From: Bradyrhizobium guangdongense | GTDB taxonomy: Bacteria > Pseudomonadota > Alphaproteobacteria > Rhizobiales > Xanthobacteraceae | Assembly: GCF_004114975.1 (NCBI RefSeq) | Contig: NZ_CP030051.1 | Span: 2,728,001-2,792,000 of the forward strand | Direction: 5' to 3' | DNA length: 64,000 nucleotides | In this document: one piece after another, positions 4,659-14,029 of the stretch | Numbering within the stretch: the first letter of the stretch is position 1 | Layout: the number at the start of each line of letters is the position of its first letter | Translations under genes and position numbers: made by a program | Notes under the pieces: model-generated | Database searches by the model: none | What the model saw: only the letters and a program-made list of their open reading frames with translations | What the model was told of the DNA's origin: nothing

Positions 4659-6059
4659 ATGCTGCAAAAGCTTAATTTCGAGGACGATTTTCAGGCGACC
4701 GAACAGGAGGATCGAGGCCACCTCCTGAGACCCGGCTTCTACTGGAGCGTGTTCAAGAGACGGTGGCCCTATTTCGTTCTTCCGTTCATGGTGATCGCGT
4801 CCGCGGGTGTTGCCGGAGCGCTGCTCTGGCCCGCGACTTATCTGTCGGAAGGGAAGATACTGGTTCAGACTCAACAGATTCCATCTGATCTCGTCAGGCC
4901 GACGGTTACCAATGCTGCTCAAGAACGCATTCAGGTGATCGAGCAGCGAACCATGACCCGCGATAATCTGATCGCCATTGCGGACAGATTCCAGCTTTTC
5001 CCCGAAAAGCGAACATTGATGTCTCCGACAGAGCTTGTCGAGCTGATGAGGAAGAGCACGAAGATCGAGCCAGTCGATCTTCACCTGGATTTCAAGCAGC
5101 GAACTCGCGCCGCGCTGGAGAACCCAACCATCGTCTTTTCGGTGGGCTTTTTGTACAATGATGCTGCTGTGGCCACGCGTGTGGCCAACGAACTAATGAC
5201 GCGCATCCTGAATGAGGATTTGCGCGACCGTACAAGTCGCGCAACTGACACCACCAAGTTCTTGGAGCGTGAAGTTCAACGTCTTCAGGCCGAAAATGTC
5301 GCCCTTGACGCCAAAATCGCGCAGCTAAAACTTGTGCAGCAGGCGAGGCCGTCTCCGCTGGCTTCCGGTCCCGACGCCCCCGCGGGGACACTTGGGCAGC
5401 TCAAGGCTGAGCTGATCCAAAAAGGCGCACTCTACTCGGAGCGCCATCCTGCCATTCAGTCGCTGAAGCGCCAGATCGAGGCGATGGAAAAGGCCACAAC
5501 AACGCCCGTGGCCCCAGCGGCAGGTAGCAGCAACACGGCCTCGAGTAACGGCAATGATCCTGCGGTTCTCGCGGCAAGCCTGGAGGCCCTTACCGCCCAG
5601 CAGGAAGGCTTGCAAAAGAATCTCGAGACTGCAACCGCCAAGCTGATGGCCGCGCGCCTTGGTGAGAATCTTGAAAAGGATCAGCAGTCTGAAAAGCTCG
5701 AGGTGATTGAACAGCCAACGGTGCCGCAGGAGCCAGTCAAGCCCAATCGTCCGAAGGTTGCAGCCCTTGCCTTCGCTCTCGCGTTCGCGGCGGGTGCCGG
5801 CCTGACATTTCTGATGGAGTTTTCCGACAAGGCCATTCGTCGTAGCTCTGATATGTTCTCGGTTGTCGAGTTTCCGCTCATCGTTTCGATCCCGTACATT
5901 ACAACGGTTACAGAGACACGCAGTCACCGGAGGCGCATTATAGCTGCCTCTGTCATGGTCATTGCAGCTGTGGTCGGCTTGGCAGCGATCGCATTTTTCG
6001 TCCTACCGCCGCTCGATCTGATGTTTGCCAAGGCCCGTGTCGGCCTCTTCCGCCTTTAG
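4659..6059 (+). CDS. Wzz-like polysaccharide chain-length determinant (exosortase/EPS type)
   Basis: 466 residues from an ATG preceded by GAAGG. It has an N-terminal Wzz segment with a transmembrane helix (residues about 35-58), a long periplasmic coiled-coil part (residues about 170-350, with LEREVQRLQAENVALDAKI), the P-x-x-P-x-x-P membrane-proximal motif VPQEPVKPNRPK, and a second membrane helix. A further C-terminal hydrophobic helix is present. It matches the PEP-CTERM-linked chain-length family (TIGR03007), which sets polymer length at the inner membrane together with a separate BY-kinase. That kinase follows 10 bases downstream, so the two form an operon. Confidence 0.9.
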   Translation: MLQKLNFEDDFQATEQEDRGHLLRPGFYWSVFKRRWPYFVLPFMVIASAGVAGALLWPATYLSEGKILVQTQQIPSDLVRPTVTNAAQERIQVIEQRTMTRDNLIAIADRFQLFPEKRTLMSPTELVELMRKSTKIEPVDLHLDFKQRTRAALENPTIVFSVGFLYNDAAVATRVANELMTRILNEDLRDRTSRATDTTKFLEREVQRLQAENVALDAKIAQLKLVQQARPSPLASGPDAPAGTLGQLKAELIQKGALYSERHPAIQSLKRQIEAMEKATTTPVAPAAGSSNTASSNGNDPAVLAASLEALTAQQEGLQKNLETATAKLMAARLGENLEKDQQSEKLEVIEQPTVPQEPVKPNRPKVAALAFALAFAAGAGLTFLMEFSDKAIRRSSDMFSVVEFPLIVSIPYITTVTETRSHRRRIIAASVMVIAAVVGLAAIAFFVLPPLDLMFAKARVGLFRL

Positions 6060-6069
6060 GAGTTCGCAA

Positions 6070-6882
6070 GTGGATTCGATCAAGCACGCAGTCGAGTTGG
6101 CACGTTCAGCTGAACAGGGCGCTCGAATTGTCCAACCCCATTCTGTTGGACCGCAGGGCAACGCTTCAGATGCAATCCGGGAGATCCGACTTAATTCCGC
6201 GCATCTCGAGAAAAATCGTATTGTGGCGCACGGCGGTATTTCGGGGCAGCCTGGGCGCTACTACGATATGCTCAGAACGCAAGTTCTGCAGGAGATGGAC
6301 AAAAAGGGATGGCAGTTCCTCGCGGTCACGTCTCCAACGCCAGGATGCGGTAAGACGGTGACGGCTTGTAATCTCGCCATGAGCATCGCGAGACTTCCTG
6401 AGCGCTCGGTCCTTCTTGTCGACCTTGATCTGCGTAAGCCTACGCTTGCCACATATTTGGGTTTCAAGCCCGAGCATGACATCATTGACGTGCTTGAGGG
6501 GCAAGACGCTCTGGCGTCGGCTGTCGTGGAAGCCGCGATTGGCCCAACCAAGATGCTCGTTTTGCCGGGGTCGACAACTTCTCACAATTCATCGGAGTGG
6601 ATGGCCTCGCAGACTATGGCGACGCTGCTTGAGCGGATCAAACGGGATTTCAGGTCCCGCACGGTGATCTTCGACTTGCCGCCGATGCTGCTCGGCGATG
6701 ATGTTATTTCCATTCTGCCCCGTATGGATGCGGTTCTCTTGATTGCAGCTGTCGGAAGCACCTCGGTTGCGGACATCAAGGAGTGCCAAAAGCACCTTCA
6801 GCGAACGCCCGTCGTCCGCGTCGTCGTCAACAAAACCGCTGGCGCCGCCGAGGAGGGTTTTTACGGCTACGGCTATTACTAG
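6070..6882 (+). CDS. Tyrosine autokinase (BY-kinase, CpsD/EpsG type)
   Basis: A GTG start with an ideal AGGAG gives 270 residues; the longer frame from 6025 lies inside the preceding gene. The cytoplasmic kinase domain has Walker A (PTPGCGKT, about residues 97-104), Walker A' (LLVDLDLRKP) and Walker B (VIFDLPP). It ends in a short tyrosine tail, FYGYGYY, with four Tyr, the usual autophosphorylation cluster. Proteins of this type (TIGR03018) form a split Wzz/kinase pair with the chain-length protein encoded just upstream and control polymer length and export. No transmembrane helix is present, as expected for the split form. Confidence 0.9.
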   Translation: MDSIKHAVELARSAEQGARIVQPHSVGPQGNASDAIREIRLNSAHLEKNRIVAHGGISGQPGRYYDMLRTQVLQEMDKKGWQFLAVTSPTPGCGKTVTACNLAMSIARLPERSVLLVDLDLRKPTLATYLGFKPEHDIIDVLEGQDALASAVVEAAIGPTKMLVLPGSTTSHNSSEWMASQTMATLLERIKRDFRSRTVIFDLPPMLLGDDVISILPRMDAVLLIAAVGSTSVADIKECQKHLQRTPVVRVVVNKTAGAAEEGFYGYGYY

Positions 6883-7222: not shown

Positions 7223-7268
7223 TATGCTGTTTTTATTGTAAATAACCAAATTAACAGTGGAGGATGGA

Positions 7269-7970
7269 ATGAAATTCAATCCCCTCTTTAAGACGGCGCT
7301 TCAGCTTCCCATTGCCATCGGCCTGATCTGCTACAGCTGCGGTGCGCAGGCGGCGAGCTATAACATCGACATCTTCACAGGCTACTCGAGCTCCAATCCA
7401 TTCGGCGGGTCGACATTCCTGGGTGGTGGCAGTCCAAGTCCTGATACGGGCTTCGCGGAGGTGGTGAATAATGGTCCCACGACGTTCACTGGTTCCGTGA
7501 GCACTACGGCCGTTTCGAATAGTGCGGGAGATTTGTCCAGTACGTTCCTCGGGCTAACCCTGGCTCCTGGTCAAGCTGTAAGTTTCGCAATCGGCACGGA
7601 GTCCAGCAATGTGGGTGGATTTAACGGACCCTTCGGCAGCCCGCAGCCCGGCGTTATCATTACCCTGAACGGGCTGTTCAATGGCCAGTCAGCATTATTG
7701 AGCGTGAACGATTCGAACATTCACTCGGGGGTATTTAGAACCAACCCCTTTGGGGTGACGCTCGACAACTACGTTCTCCAAGGCGGAGATCCGCTGGGTA
7801 GGGATACTGGCGACGGTTTCGAAGAATCCCAGGCCCAGGGACACGTCAACTTCTCTTCAGTGGGCGCCGTGCCCGAACCCTCCACGTGGGCGATGATGAT
7901 CCTCGGCTTCTTCGGGCTCGGTTTCCTTGCCTATCGTCGCAAGGAGCAAGTCTCACTGACCGCAACCTGA
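7269..7970 (+). CDS. PEPxxWA-CTERM sorting-domain protein
   Basis: 233 residues; the ATG at 7269 follows a strong GGAGG, whereas the upstream in-frame GTG is part of that ribosome-binding site. A signal peptide (cleavage near AQA, residue 26) leads into a Gly/Ser/Asn-rich extracellular part with no recognised enzyme motif. The C-terminal sorting signal starts at about residue 201: [10 protein letters not shown], a hydrophobic helix, then YRRK and nine more residues. Such proteins are exported by Sec and processed at the motif by an exosortase, here probably the one encoded at 13109. A strong terminator follows. The fold of the mature protein is not recognised. The 3' end is duplicated in degraded form near 9.98 kb. 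Confidence 0.9.
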
Positions 7971-7996
7971 TCATCCGCTTCACCTACGAAACTGCG

Positions 7997-8024
7997 AGAC
8001 CGCCTTCGGGCGGTCTTCGTTTTT
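7997..8024 (+). terminator. Rho-independent terminator after the first PEP-CTERM gene
   Basis: An 8-bp perfect stem (AGACCGCC/GGCGGTCT) with a TTCG tetraloop is followed by TCGTTTTT. It starts 27 bases after the stop codon. A degraded copy of this hairpin exists at about 10073-10108. Confidence 0.9.
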
Positions 8025-8042
8025 GGTTTAGCCTCGGAGCAA

Positions 8043-8400
8043 TGTGATCGATCGGGGCGGGAGGGAAGACGCGGTCTCGCGGCAGAAGCCAATCTATTTG
8101 CGATGTCGCAAAAATCGTTTTGTCGGCCGATGCGGCGCCTGACTGATCTTCCGGCTCATGATGCCGGGTGCTTCACGTCGAATATGCTCGATCCGGCACT
8201 TCCAGTCCGAGCGATGTGCTTGATTGCCGTGCCGAAGCGCCCATGCCGTACCGGGAGCGCGCGTTTAGGCGCAACAGTCTGCGCTCTGCGGGCCAGTGCG
8301 CATGCGCCGCGCTGCCTCCCCCCAATCGCCTCGTCCCATCTTGATCAGAGACAGCGAGCCATTCTGGCAGTTGGCCGGATTCCAAGTGACTTGGAGAATG
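8043..8400 (-). pseudogene. Relic of a trypsin-like serine protease
   Basis: The minus strand here aligns by eye with the 3' part of the intact protease gene at 10235-10936, in DNA and in translation. The active-site segment of the intact protein, RTGNSGSGVFDV, appears here as RTGSAGSSIFDV, so the catalytic Ser is Ala. An in-frame stop follows shortly afterwards where the intact protein has GIMSRK, and indels shift the frame. The N-terminal half is not recognisable. It faces the PEP-CTERM gene at 7269 across a terminator, the same arrangement as the decayed PEP-CTERM tail and intact protease at 9.95-10.9 kb. The 145-aa forward ORF here is antisense to this relic and is not called. Confidence 0.7.
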
Positions 8401-8643
8401 GTCACTTGAACCATGGAACGCCGGAAGCGAACTCAGTTGTTCATCACGCGCGGGAGAGAATGAGGGCGTGCGTAGCTGGATCGGACGGAGGCTGGGGTCG
8501 CACAGGGCACGCGTGGAAATGGTGCGACGTCGACGAATGAGATGGCACCGCTCTGCGGGCCGCCAAGCGGGCCAAGTTGGAATTTCGATCTGGCTGCTGG
8601 CGCTTGCGCAACAGCACCGCGTGTGATCGCGTTCTGACCGCGC

Positions 8644-8672
8644 AAAAAAAGGCCGCCTCGCGGCGGCCTTTC
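8644..8672 (-). terminator. Rho-independent terminator of the minus-strand PEP-CTERM gene
   Basis: On the minus strand an AAAGGCCGCC/GGCGGCCTTT stem with a small loop runs into a T-tract (seen as A7 at 8644-8650). It lies about 20 bases after the stop codon at 8692. Confidence 0.9.
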
Positions 8673-8691
8673 GAACTCGTCGTGTTACAGC

Positions 8692-9300
8692 TCAGGCAAA
8701 GCGGAAGCTGGTCCCACTTCGCCGGCGATATGCGGCGAAGCCCACGCCCATGAAACCAAGCAGCATCATTGCCCAAGTGGATGCCTCAGGAACCGCGGGT
8801 GCGGCGGGACCCTGCACCGACAGGTCATCAAAGAAGTTGTAAGACGGGTCGTTTCGGCTGGTGATCACGAAGGAATCAGTGCCGTGTCCAATGAAAAAAC
8901 CGGTGAACGGTAGCCAACCACCGGTGGGGGGAACTGTCGGCGGACCCAATGTCAAGCTGGCGGTGCCGCCCACGTTGATCCCGAGGTCGGCCGGGGTGCC
9001 GCCGTAGCTGAAAGCCCAACCCGAGAAGGTGTACAACGCGCCCACGACATCATGGAACGTCTGCGTCAAGATGCCATCGCTGCCGACTGGGCCGCTGAAG
9101 AAAGAGTAATTACCGCTATGGACAGGGGAGGTGCCCACACCGGTGAAACCGCCATTCCCCGTCAATGTCCAGCCGGGGGCGAGACTGCCGCTTTCAAAGC
9201 CGCCATTTTGGAGCAGCTCAACCGCCTTGGCGGAAGTACCAAGGCCGATCGACATGACTGCCGCTGTGCCGACCGCAATTAATGTTTGACGTATATTCAT
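8692..9300 (-). CDS. PEPxxWA-CTERM sorting-domain protein
   Basis: 202 residues from the ATG at 9300, preceded by AGAGGAG; the frame opens 11 codons earlier without a better site. The signal peptide MNIRQTLIAVGTAAVMS... is cleaved near AKA (residue 26). The mature part starts LLQNGGFESGSLAPGWTL, a pattern typical of PEP-CTERM proteins with a jelly-roll, carbohydrate-binding-like (DUF642-type) fold. The tail from about residue 170 reads VPEASTWAMM, a hydrophobic helix, YRRR and eight further residues. It should be exported by Sec and processed by the exosortase. It lies between the protease relic and the second copy of the duplicated module. Confidence 0.9.
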   Translation of the reverse strand: MNIRQTLIAVGTAAVMSIGLGTSAKAVELLQNGGFESGSLAPGWTLTGNGGFTGVGTSPVHSGNYSFFSGPVGSDGILTQTFHDVVGALYTFSGWAFSYGGTPADLGINVGGTASLTLGPPTVPPTGGWLPFTGFFIGHGTDSFVITSRNDPSYNFFDDLSVQGPAAPAVPEASTWAMMLLGFMGVGFAAYRRRSGTSFRFA

Positions 9301-9333
9301 TTGATCCAAACTCCTCTGCGCAGGTTTTACCAA

Positions 9334-9949
9334 TTATTTACTACCATTCAATCGCAGGGGATTCAAGGGCTCCCGATTTTTTTATTCCGAAAGCCAAAAG
9401 CCCAAACTCTAAGCATCAGAACTGGCAATTAATTCGCCTACGATTGCGGGCCTGAAGGCCCACATGATAGGATGAAGATATCGCTTCTGACCAAATTGTC
9501 CTGCGTTCCGACGAGAATTTAACGCAAATTAAATGTTATGTCTTGGGGCCGGCTGTCGGTGACCTGCAATATTGGCGTCCTAACCTCTTGAAATTATGTT
9601 CTTAGCTGGTGAAAGCCGCAGGCCTTATCCGGGTCCATCACACGGCGGTCACAGACTTCTTTAGCCCGTTTGGCGGCTTTTGCGGTCGCAAGCCCGCTCG
9701 GCACGACTTGTTGAGCGCAATCCTCGACCGTGCCGAGGCTTTGGGCATTCCATGACTTTTCCGATCAACACCGGAGTTAAGCAGTGTTGCAAATTTAAAG
9801 GAGCATACGGCCGCCACCATCCCCTTGAACGGCTGATTCCATGGCATGCAGCCCTCATGAGTTTGGCCGATTCAAATATACCCATTCCTGGTCGTAGGCG
9901 GCCGGGCTATTCAGAGACACCAGAGATGCCTGCGAGGTCGCCTAAGCGC
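9334..9949. other. Long non-coding gap
   Basis: I see no supported gene. The part next to 9300 holds the AT-rich leader of the minus-strand PEP-CTERM gene (TTGAAT, 17 bases, TAGTAA on the minus strand). The rest has only short frames without credible starts. Confidence 0.45.
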
Positions 9950-10130
9950 AAAGACCGCGTTCGTGAGCCACCGGCTGTGCGATGATGATCCTGGCCTTCT
10001 TCTGACCTCGGTCCTTGGGGGTATCGCCGTACGGACAGATCACACTCGCTGCCGTCCGGTCGCAACCTCGTACGAGACCACGCAAACCGCCGTCGGGCGG
10101 TCTCCTGTTTCGGCCAGAACTCCGATAATC
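9950..10130 (+). pseudogene. Relic of a PEP-CTERM gene 3' end plus its terminator
   Basis: GCGATGATGATCCT at 9979 matches the WAMMIL codons of the gene at 7269. The next bases follow that gene's codons for [12 protein letters not shown] with substitutions, a stop (TGA) after AFF and frameshifts. A GTGAGCCACCGG segment just before corresponds to a shortened VPEPST region. An ACCGCC/GGCGGT hairpin at about 10086-10108 corresponds to the terminator at 7997. The rest of the gene is not recognisable. Together with the protease that follows, this is the second copy of a duplicated module. Confidence 0.65.
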
Positions 10131-10234
10131 TGTTTAGCCTCACAGTATCGCCTCGCATCGGGAACTGGCCCCAACTCAGGCATTGTCTAGATTCGTCGGG
10201 CAATGCCCTATTTGCGTCGTGCCAAACCCTGTCT

Positions 10235-10936
10235 TCAGAGGCCGGGAGGCAGAAAGGCCGCGATCTCGCGCGCAGGCACGAAGTATTTGGCGACGTCGCG
10301 ATTATAATTCTTGCCCATAGAGAGAGGCGATCGCGCTTGAGTGATCTTCCGACTCATGATCCCCAGCAGGCAACGCTGCTGCACATCGAACACGCCTGAC
10401 CCGGAATTTCCGGTCCGAGCGACATCCTCAATTGCTGTGCTGAAGCGCCGCAGGCTTATCGGGATCCGCTCGGGCGATATCACCCGCGACGGGACTACGC
10501 CTTCAGGCACAACTGTCACAACGGGCTCACCCGCGACCGGTTGGTGGCGGCACACTTCCATGTGGCGAAGACGGAGCCGCATCGGAAGCAGCTTCTCGTC
10601 TACAGACAAGAGGGTGAGGTCAGTCGATTCGAAGCTTCCTTCCCTGACGATCTCGGTCGGGTACTCGACGCCCGCAACCACCACTTTCGGCCAGGTTAAC
10701 CATCCCCGACCTACTACATGGGCGGCCGTTATGAACAAGCCCTTCCCCAGGTAGATGCCATAGCCTGTCCACGTCTGTGTCGGGGTGCGGTGAATATTGA
10801 CCGCATAGGGGAGCAGCGTCTCCTCGGCGACTTGCAGACTATCTTGGGCCAGCTGGAGCGCCGTGGGCAATGGCGCAAAGCCAAGACCTAACGCGGCAAG
10901 AACTAGCGCTCGGCTAAGGTGCAACAGGCGTCCCAT
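10235..10936 (-). CDS. Trypsin-like serine protease, secreted, in operon with epsI
   Basis: 233 residues from the ATG at 10936 (GGTGG upstream); a TTG start at 10978 would add 14 residues. The N-terminus is a hydrophobic signal or anchor (residues about 10-30). The S1 triad is complete: His73 in FITAAHVV, Asp106 in STDLTLLSV and Ser178 in TGNSGSGVF. The gene starts within 50 bases of the epsI stop on the same strand, so the two are probably co-transcribed. S1 proteases of this kind act in the periplasm or outside the cell. Linkage to epsI suggests work on sorted proteins or quality control, which is inference. A decayed paralogue lies at 8043-8400. Confidence 0.85.
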   Translation of the reverse strand: MGRLLHLSRALVLAALGLGFAPLPTALQLAQDSLQVAEETLLPYAVNIHRTPTQTWTGYGIYLGKGLFITAAHVVGRGWLTWPKVVVAGVEYPTEIVREGSFESTDLTLLSVDEKLLPMRLRLRHMEVCRHQPVAGEPVVTVVPEGVVPSRVISPERIPISLRRFSTAIEDVARTGNSGSGVFDVQQRCLLGIMSRKITQARSPLSMGKNYNRDVAKYFVPAREIAAFLPPGL

Positions 10937-10980
10937 GCGCCACCATTGCAGGAGGCGACCCTGCAGCAATGTTCCCAACG

Positions 10981-11682
10981 TTACGATGCGCCAGTGAAAA
11001 ATCTCAGCTCCTGGGCGGGGACCGCTGATAAGAGGTCGTGGATAAATTGATCCTGCAACTGGAATGAAGCTTCTTTTGGCAGACCGATTGTAGAAACTCT
11101 GATGAGCGCCCCGTCCGGGATCAGCCCGCGCAACCCATACTTGAGGCGACTTAGCTGGTAACTGACCACGCCATTTGTCACATCATTGCCGATCCTAATC
11201 CAATAGGTCACCGGCTCGTACCGCGACTCTCGCTCCGCGATGAGGCGCGTGGCCAAGATCGGCGACGCCCCATTTCGAAAACTCACGGGTGCATCAACCT
11301 TGTCCGAGATCCTAAAGCCGTTGGCGGTATAGCAGATTTCGGGGCGATGAGCTTTGAGCCGGTAATTCTGAACTGGCCCGTAGGCCACCATCAACATCAC
11401 GATATGGCCCTGACCGTCCGAATAGCCGCGGCCGACTTCCTGACTGTAGACCTTGGCAGACTGCGGATCGGGCTGGACATACGCCTCGGGATCGACCGGC
11501 TGAACCGGGCTAATTTCAGGAACGATCTTCCAAGTTCCAAACTGGCGCGGGATCACGGTCTCCAGGCTTGGAGCAGCCGAGGTTCGCGCCATAAGCTCGC
11601 GCGGGGCGAGCACATTGGCCATGACGGCGGAGCCCACAATGGCTACCGAAGCGAGCACAAAATGAATACGGGACAAATGCAT
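10981..11682 (-). CDS. epsI: Exosortase-associated protein EpsI
   Basis: 233 residues with an N-terminal membrane anchor (residues about 7-25). The DUF3485/EpsI domain is recognised by VIPRQFGTWK near residue 44, the conserved AHRPEICYTANGF segment with its Cys, and YWIRIGNDV further on. EpsI proteins occur with, or fused to, exosortases and are needed for exopolysaccharide or PEP-CTERM function, though their biochemical role is not settled. The gene is divergent from the foldase/accessory protein/exosortase set and shares a roughly 235-base promoter region with it. A trypsin-like protease gene follows directly. The free-standing form together with the small accessory protein points to the alphaproteobacterial XrtV-type system. 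Confidence 0.9.
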   Translation of the reverse strand: MHLSRIHFVLASVAIVGSAVMANVLAPRELMARTSAAPSLETVIPRQFGTWKIVPEISPVQPVDPEAYVQPDPQSAKVYSQEVGRGYSDGQGHIVMLMVAYGPVQNYRLKAHRPEICYTANGFRISDKVDAPVSFRNGASPILATRLIAERESRYEPVTYWIRIGNDVTNGVVSYQLSRLKYGLRGLIPDGALIRVSTIGLPKEASFQLQDQFIHDLLSAVPAQELRFFTGAS

Positions 11683-13108: not shown

Positions 13109-14029
13109 ATGACATATTCCCAGGTGGTGCAATCAGCAGAAGCTCGGCCCTTGTCCAAATTTTTCTGGCCGGCGCTCCTCTTTGGTTCCGTGTTGGCCGG
13201 CTATTTTCCCACTCTCCTCTCCTTGATTGATGGTCCCTGGCAGACCGAGCAGGAGGGGCATGGGCCTCTCATCATGGCGGCCTCGTTGTGGTGGGTCTGG
13301 CAGTCTCGTGCCCGTTTGAAGGCGGTTGAATTATCGCCAGCACCGATTGCCGGCTGGGTGATTCTCCTTTGCGGCCTGATCCTGATGTATCTTGCCAGAA
13401 TTCAACAGGGACTGGTGACGATCGAAATGGCGTCTCTGCTGCCGGTGATCGTGGGATGCATCCTGCTCACGGCAGGCTGGCCGACGTTGCGCATCTTGGC
13501 ATTCCCGATAGGCTTCCTCATCTTCGCCGTGCCGATGCCTGACTGGCTGATTGACGCCGCGACCGTGCCGCTAAAGGTCTTCATCTCGAACATGGTCACG
13601 AAGGTACTGTATGCAGCGGGTTACCCGGTGGCGCAGAACGGTGTGATGATCATGATCGGCTCATATCAGCTCCTGGTGAAGGATGCCTGCTCGGGCATGA
13701 ACTCAATTTTTGCCCTTTCGGCAATTGGCGTTTTCTACGCATACGCGTTCCGCTGGGAGGAGAAGCTGCGCAGCGTGCTGCTGTTGCTGGCGATCGTCCC
13801 GATCACGATTCTTGCCAATTTCGTGCGGGTCTTCACGCTCGTCCTCATCGCTTATTACGCGGGGCCGGACCTTCTTGAGGGGATCGTGCACGATATGACC
13901 GGCATTGGCCTGTTCATCGTCGCGGTCGTTCTCATGTTCATGTTTGACGCGGTGCTGGGTTTGGCGTTCGGTCTGGTCAGCCGTCTTCGGAGGCGAAGTT
14001 TGCCGGAAGCTCACCCCCATACGGCCTGA
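13109..14029 (+). CDS. xrtV: Exosortase (EpsH family, probably XrtV type)
   Basis: 306 residues with about eight transmembrane helices. The exosortase catalytic residues are present: Cys194 in DACSGMNS, Arg240 in NFVRV and His261 in GIVHDMTG. Exosortases are inner-membrane transpeptidase-like enzymes that cleave PEP-CTERM tails and are thought to pass the protein on to another acceptor. Eight intact candidate substrates with VPExSTW(A/I)M tails are encoded in this window. The type assignment rests on the separate EpsI, the 73-aa neighbour and the PEPxxWA form of the substrates, and is less certain than the family. It is last in the epsD-accessory-exosortase run. Confidence 0.92.
   Translation: MTYSQVVQSAEARPLSKFFWPALLFGSVLAGYFPTLLSLIDGPWQTEQEGHGPLIMAASLWWVWQSRARLKAVELSPAPIAGWVILLCGLILMYLARIQQGLVTIEMASLLPVIVGCILLTAGWPTLRILAFPIGFLIFAVPMPDWLIDAATVPLKVFISNMVTKVLYAAGYPVAQNGVMIMIGSYQLLVKDACSGMNSIFALSAIGVFYAYAFRWEEKLRSVLLLLAIVPITILANFVRVFTLVLIAYYAGPDLLEGIVHDMTGIGLFIVAVVLMFMFDAVLGLAFGLVSRLRRRSLPEAHPHTA

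Follow-up and report, generated by a model that had tools for sequence, protein, structure and literature searches.

The closest described counterpart of the locus studied here is the PEP-CTERM/exosortase (EpsH) system, for which Haft et al. (2006; PMC1569441), in the passages that set out their model, have the exosortase itself cut the PEP motif. We analyzed a 64-kb stretch of the Bradyrhizobium guangdongense chromosome (the window; all positions below are window coordinates), in which a PEP-CTERM gene and the 3′ end of a trypsin-like protease gene occur twice within an exosortase V/exopolysaccharide locus. As far as those passages go, the locus resembles the described system in combining XrtV, EpsI, an EpsD-like isomerase, a tetratricopeptide-repeat protein, a kinase and several PEPxxWA-CTERM genes. 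XrtV, which presumably processes the PEP-CTERM proteins, and the V-type EpsI both score above their family cut-offs. What sets the locus apart is the trypsin-like protease, of which the same passages make no mention. This protein exceeds the gathering cut-off of Trypsin_2 (PF13365) and has the His, Asp and Ser of that family in order and invariant in 39 of 39 homologues, but it matches no NCBIfam family at E ⩽0.001, and a search by sequence for solved relatives returned one match (E=0.28) to an unrelated enzyme and none that was meaningful. For the repeat itself the nearest parallel is tandem duplication–random loss, in which, according to the part of that literature drawn on here, neighbouring genes are duplicated together and one copy of each is lost, leaving reciprocal remnants as in our case; it differs from that parallel in its setting on a bacterial chromosome, in the further gene between the copies and in the truncation of the protease copy. 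With good confidence, we explain the B. guangdongense arrangement by a segmental duplication, partial and probably tandem, within the XrtV/exopolysaccharide locus, after which redundant parts were lost.

A duplicated segment with one decayed copy of each gene

Two segments, at about 7.5–8.26 kb and 9.7–10.46 kb, share a PEP-CTERM gene body and 3′ end, a hairpin and the 3′ end of the protease gene, in the same orientation, collinear and with similarity above chance. A preliminary description of this DNA had placed the repeat at 7.86–8.4 and 9.95–10.5 kb; the alignment holds, but the shared part begins upstream of 7860 and 9950. The match extends well outside the hairpin. The protease tails (8055–8256 and 10240–10464) align at 79% identity over 199 columns with a local score of 93, against a mean of 24.4 and a maximum of 32 in 100 dinucleotide shuffles. 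At the PEP-CTERM end, a profile of the body of the intact gene (PEP1) without its sorting motif, built from the PEP1 sequences of the B. guangdongense strain and Bradyrhizobium zhengyangense, matched 9705–9881 with E=1.9e-9. The same profile also matched the orthologous place in B. zhengyangense (E=9.7e-6), a support rather than a fully independent test, as the two dead copies are orthologous; besides PEP1 itself, the next matches in the window and the B. zhengyangense locus stood at E=2.7 and 4.6 only. A PEP1 profile (nhmmer) matched 9705–10117 (E=1.1e-24), and the best match of a hairpin profile after PEP1's own was 10069–10119 (E=6e-5).

The WAMMIL codons at the 3′ end, named previously among the aligned parts, proved not to be diagnostic and were rejected as evidence of kinship. 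When the motif region of PEP1 was used as a profile, the dead copy was outscored by five further places in the window, all of them PEP-CTERM matches and closer to the PEP1 motif. The motif alone being weak evidence, it is the gene body that carries the proof that the two genes are kin.

In copy 1, PEP1 is intact; its product shares 98% identity with a B. guangdongense protein. It has 237 codons if read from the GTG at 7257; the ATG at 7269 is an alternative and the probable start. Its C-terminal PEPxxWA sorting domain is recognized by both NF035944 and PF07589 above their cut-offs. The protease of this copy is dead, as previously proposed: the GNSG of the active-site serine reads GSAG (Ser to Ala), 10 bases are lost, and there are frame changes and stops. 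It is, however, a 3′ fragment and not a whole gene. The whole-gene protease profile matched 8256–8060 only, roughly the last third, and no second copy of 10470–10978, the first 509 of the protease's 744 bases, was found within the window. The idea that copy 1 holds a dead protease of full length was therefore rejected, the first two thirds being absent; given the 79% identity of the tail, such a copy should be visible, so that the gene was either never copied whole or later deleted.

In copy 2 the situation is reversed, as the preliminary description had it. The protease is intact, and its H, D and S, inferred to be the catalytic residues by comparison with the Trypsin_2 family, are all kept. 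The PEP-CTERM gene is broken by an in-body stop (LNG-stop-F) and a frame change before ADSN, and its motif, in which the Trp codon has become TGT, is out of frame with the preceding EP; a 101-codon open frame (9680–9985) crosses part of this dead gene and does not read the motif. A hairpin follows the PEP-CTERM gene in both copies; that of copy 1 is strong (z=−4.0), that of copy 2 weak (z=−1.5) and partly deleted in B. zhengyangense. The earlier two-copy layout also needs correction in that a third PEP-CTERM gene, PEP2, lies between the copies on the minus strand (Table 1).

Substitution rates were compared between the B. guangdongense strain and B. zhengyangense. The ratio of non-synonymous to synonymous rates (Ka/Ks) was 0.10 for PEP1, 0.150 for the protease, 0.215 for PEP2 and 0.02–0.18 for nine other genes of the locus. 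PEP1 and the protease are both under purifying selection. The dead PEP-CTERM copy showed K=0.19 with 20 gaps in 553 aligned bases. The alignments, the broken frames and the selection on the intact genes together support a duplication after which each gene decayed in one of its two copies.

Table 1. Positions in the window of the two copies and of neighbouring genes in the XrtV locus.
Feature	Position	Strand	Basis
Tyrosine autokinase-like gene	6025..6882	+	NCBIfam TIGR03018 139.1 bits, below cut-off 230.65; gene order in relatives
Copy 1 PEPxxWA-CTERM gene PEP1, intact	7257..7970	+	NF035944 35.8 bits (cut-off 35)
Copy 1 terminator-like hairpin followed by T run	7996..8020	+	Fold z-score −4.0; sequence
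Copy 1 protease 3′ fragment, pseudogene	8055..8256	−	Ser codon to Ala, 10 bases missing, frame changes
PEP2, separate PEP-CTERM gene between the copies, outside the repeat	8692..9333	−	Sub-threshold carbohydrate-binding match
Copy 2 decayed PEP1 paralogue	9705..10075	+	Homology significant from 9705, possible from ~9464
Copy 2 hairpin remnant	10080..10104	+	Fold z-score −1.5; profile match
Copy 2 protease (Trypsin_2), intact	10235..10978	−	PF13365 29.2 bits (cut-off 27.6)
epsI, V-type, directly upstream of protease, same strand	10981..11682	−	NF045608 233.8 bits (cut-off 228)
Exosortase XrtV	13109..14029	+	NF035943 316.3 bits (cut-off 313)

Probable course and age of the duplication

We infer the order of events, the tandem mode and the roles of the proteins as follows. 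In the old layout, the kinase gene would have abutted a convergent protease–epsI pair. A PEP-CTERM gene of a family that is rare in the genus would then have entered between them, in an ancestor shared with B. zhengyangense, and a stretch running from this gene into the 3′ end of the protease would have been duplicated. The inner PEP-CTERM copy would have been dead by the time the two species diverged, and the protease copy on the outside, now a 3′ fragment, would be non-functional. The genes that remain would act independently of each other: PEP1 would be one among several substrates that XrtV sorts, and the protease an envelope hydrolase encoded in the XrtV locus.

The B. zhengyangense locus holds PEP1, PEP2, the dead PEP-CTERM copy and the intact protease. 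Since the PEP-CTERM copy is broken there too, it died before the two species separated. As for the protease fragment, a nucleotide comparison (blastn) scored it best against the resident B. guangdongense protease (68.0 bits), then against that of B. zhengyangense (61.7 bits), and at 48.2 bits or less against the other 37 compared; being nearest to these two proteases, the fragment points to a copy that arose in this lineage.

Several observations weigh against this course of events. The copies are not head to tail: PEP2 and 435 other bases intervene with no visible junction, and these 435 bases (8257–8691, between the protease fragment and PEP2), when searched against their own genome, matched only themselves. 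No relative with a single PEP1–protease segment was found, either at the protease loci of 31 relatives or by the PEP1 family in 265 genomes of the genus. In B. zhengyangense no such fragment was found after PEP1: homology stops at the PEP1 hairpin and the draft genome breaks here; the DNA beyond that hairpin is taken, from its sequence, for insertion-sequence material. Across the B. zhengyangense genome, nothing apart from the intact protease matched the fragment at better than E=0.005, and a search with 8021–8700 gave 13 matches, namely the end of PEP2, that protease and 11 short ones (E ⩾0.005). As the fragment was not found there, its age rests on distances over some 200 bases. In a nucleotide tree built from the protease tail, the fragment fell into a different group with weak support (0.705), but in that tree a short fragment sits on a long branch, and we relied on the pairwise scores instead. 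Lastly, the synonymous rate (Ks) of PEP1 is 1.18 in the body and 0.41 in the last 37 codons, compared with 0.22–0.58 for 11 other genes of the locus, which suggests that the PEP1 body was replaced by another allele through recombination and speaks against a purely vertical story. Recombination has thus probably acted on PEP1 as well.

The last two of these observations would also fit an import, in which PEP1 and the protease tail came together by recombination from the XrtV locus of another strain and landed beside the resident copy. The body of the dead copy, with 29 sites in common with one PEP1 allele and 28 with the second, can be cited in the same sense. We nevertheless consider an import unlikely, because, of the 39 proteases compared, the resident one gives the fragment its best score and because the PEP1 family (E cut-off 1e-15, at most 11 candidates scored per genome) occurs in only 2 of the 265 Bradyrhizobium genomes that make up our genus sample.

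Gene order in relatives and the proposed substrate/protease unit

From the reciprocal pattern of survival, the preliminary description had concluded that substrate and protease are selected as a functional unit. On that account the protease matures PEP1, and selection has kept one working pair. Both genes are indeed intact, under purifying selection and neighbours in the B. guangdongense strain as well as in B. zhengyangense; strain CCBAU 11434 appears in the homologue lists of both PEP1 and the protease, each time with a contig of 42,221 bases, and two metagenome contigs (21,069 and 9,314 bases) perhaps carry both families, as judged from a coincidence of size only. Purifying selection on each gene, however, says nothing about the pair. 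Nor does the reciprocity carry much information, since by our own reasoning it is expected about half the time if chance decides which copy of each gene is lost. Copy 1, which lacks the first two thirds of the protease, may moreover have been truncated inside that gene from the start, and in that case the protease outcome was fixed and only the loss of a PEP-CTERM gene was open.

The relatives speak against the unit. In the genus sample, the protease (E cut-off 1e-3) was found in 39 of the 265 genomes, against the two with the PEP1 family, and 33 of the 35 genomes with XrtV (E cut-off 1e-60) have the protease without a PEP1 gene. A search with the single PEP1 sequence had returned 51 of the 265 genomes at E ⩽0.001 and was set aside: these were mostly motif matches, besides some longer alignments at ~28–46% identity, and none, the two true copies aside, reached E=1e-15 with the PEP1 family profile. 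Across a phylum sample of 398 genomes (at most seven candidates scored per genome), the PEP1 family was found in the genome under study alone. Many relatives of PEP1 at ~43–63% identity do exist, mostly in metagenomic sequences (best 120 of 1192 matches), yet almost none are in the genomes searched.

Gene order leads to the same result. We examined the surroundings of the protease in all 38 other genomes that have it, and in 31 of them both kinase and protease were readable. The two genes lie within 150 bp of each other or overlap in 23 of these 31, the protease gene adjoining the 3′ end of the kinase gene, and are ~2.1 kb apart in the other eight. A crude pattern found no PEP motif between kinase and protease at any of the 31 loci, one of the eight 2.1-kb loci being partly masked so that a motif could hide there. 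At the seven remaining loci, where the stretch contains no kinase, a PEP motif was seen downstream of the protease in B. zhengyangense only; for two of the seven, just ~0.1 and ~1.4 kb are left before the contig ends. Two of the eight 2.1-kb inserts were read and hold sugar-nucleotide genes, which we take to be those for GDP-mannose dehydratase and GDP-fucose synthase. The junction between kinase and protease is thus an entry place for differing cargo, of which PEP-CTERM genes are one kind, in one species pair, and the protease belongs with epsI and XrtV. The undecayed module was not found in the relatives, and in the searched genomes of the genus outside this species pair PEP1 and protease make up no shared module, an outcome that the preliminary description had itself named as refuting its reading.

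Taken with the PEP1 and protease counts, these data make a jointly selected unit very unlikely; the case is an ordinary one of genes duplicated and spare parts lost, and the two genes are separable. It illustrates that duplication with subsequent loss readily passes for co-selection of two genes, and that a comparison with relatives can decide the matter. Chance resemblance, by which the PEP-CTERM remnant of copy 2 would be the tail of an unrelated gene of this type, has a negligible probability: the motif region alone is closer to PEP1 at the five other places in the window, but the body-only matches in both species stand far ahead of the next ones, and the hairpin and protease tail come in the same order in both copies.

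The protease in XrtV loci

The 38 relatives with the protease each gave one match, and all 35 XrtV genomes of the genus sample are among the genomes that have it. This 35/35 co-occurrence is to be read with the caution that the genomes are not independent and that physical linkage may explain part of it. Together with the invariance of the presumed catalytic residues in the 39 homologues and the lack of an NCBIfam family, it suggests that the protease may be a regular part of these loci. Judging from sequence data, it is possible, although we hold it to be doubtful, that the protease is an undescribed standing component of XrtV loci that trims PEP-CTERM or polysaccharide-export proteins in general and not PEP1 specifically. 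No publication on this protease was found in the exosortase/PEP-CTERM literature searched, taking the top-ranked results for the broader queries.

Two findings count against a general rule linking protease and XrtV. The first comes from the wider samples. Across the class, 2 of 167 genomes gave an XrtV match, the genome under study and one below the family cut-off, and the protease profile found no match in the 19.9 kb around this second XrtV-like gene. The second is that four genomes of the genus have the protease without XrtV. In the order sample, the protease itself was found in 2 of 297 genomes, that is, the genome under study and one with a partial match (E=8.6e-4). Within Bradyrhizobium, its presence alongside XrtV in every one of the 35 XrtV genomes makes the protease a testable partner for work on exosortases. 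In one of the genomes without XrtV, reading of the sequence placed the protease homologue between type II secretion-like and sugar-nucleotide genes.

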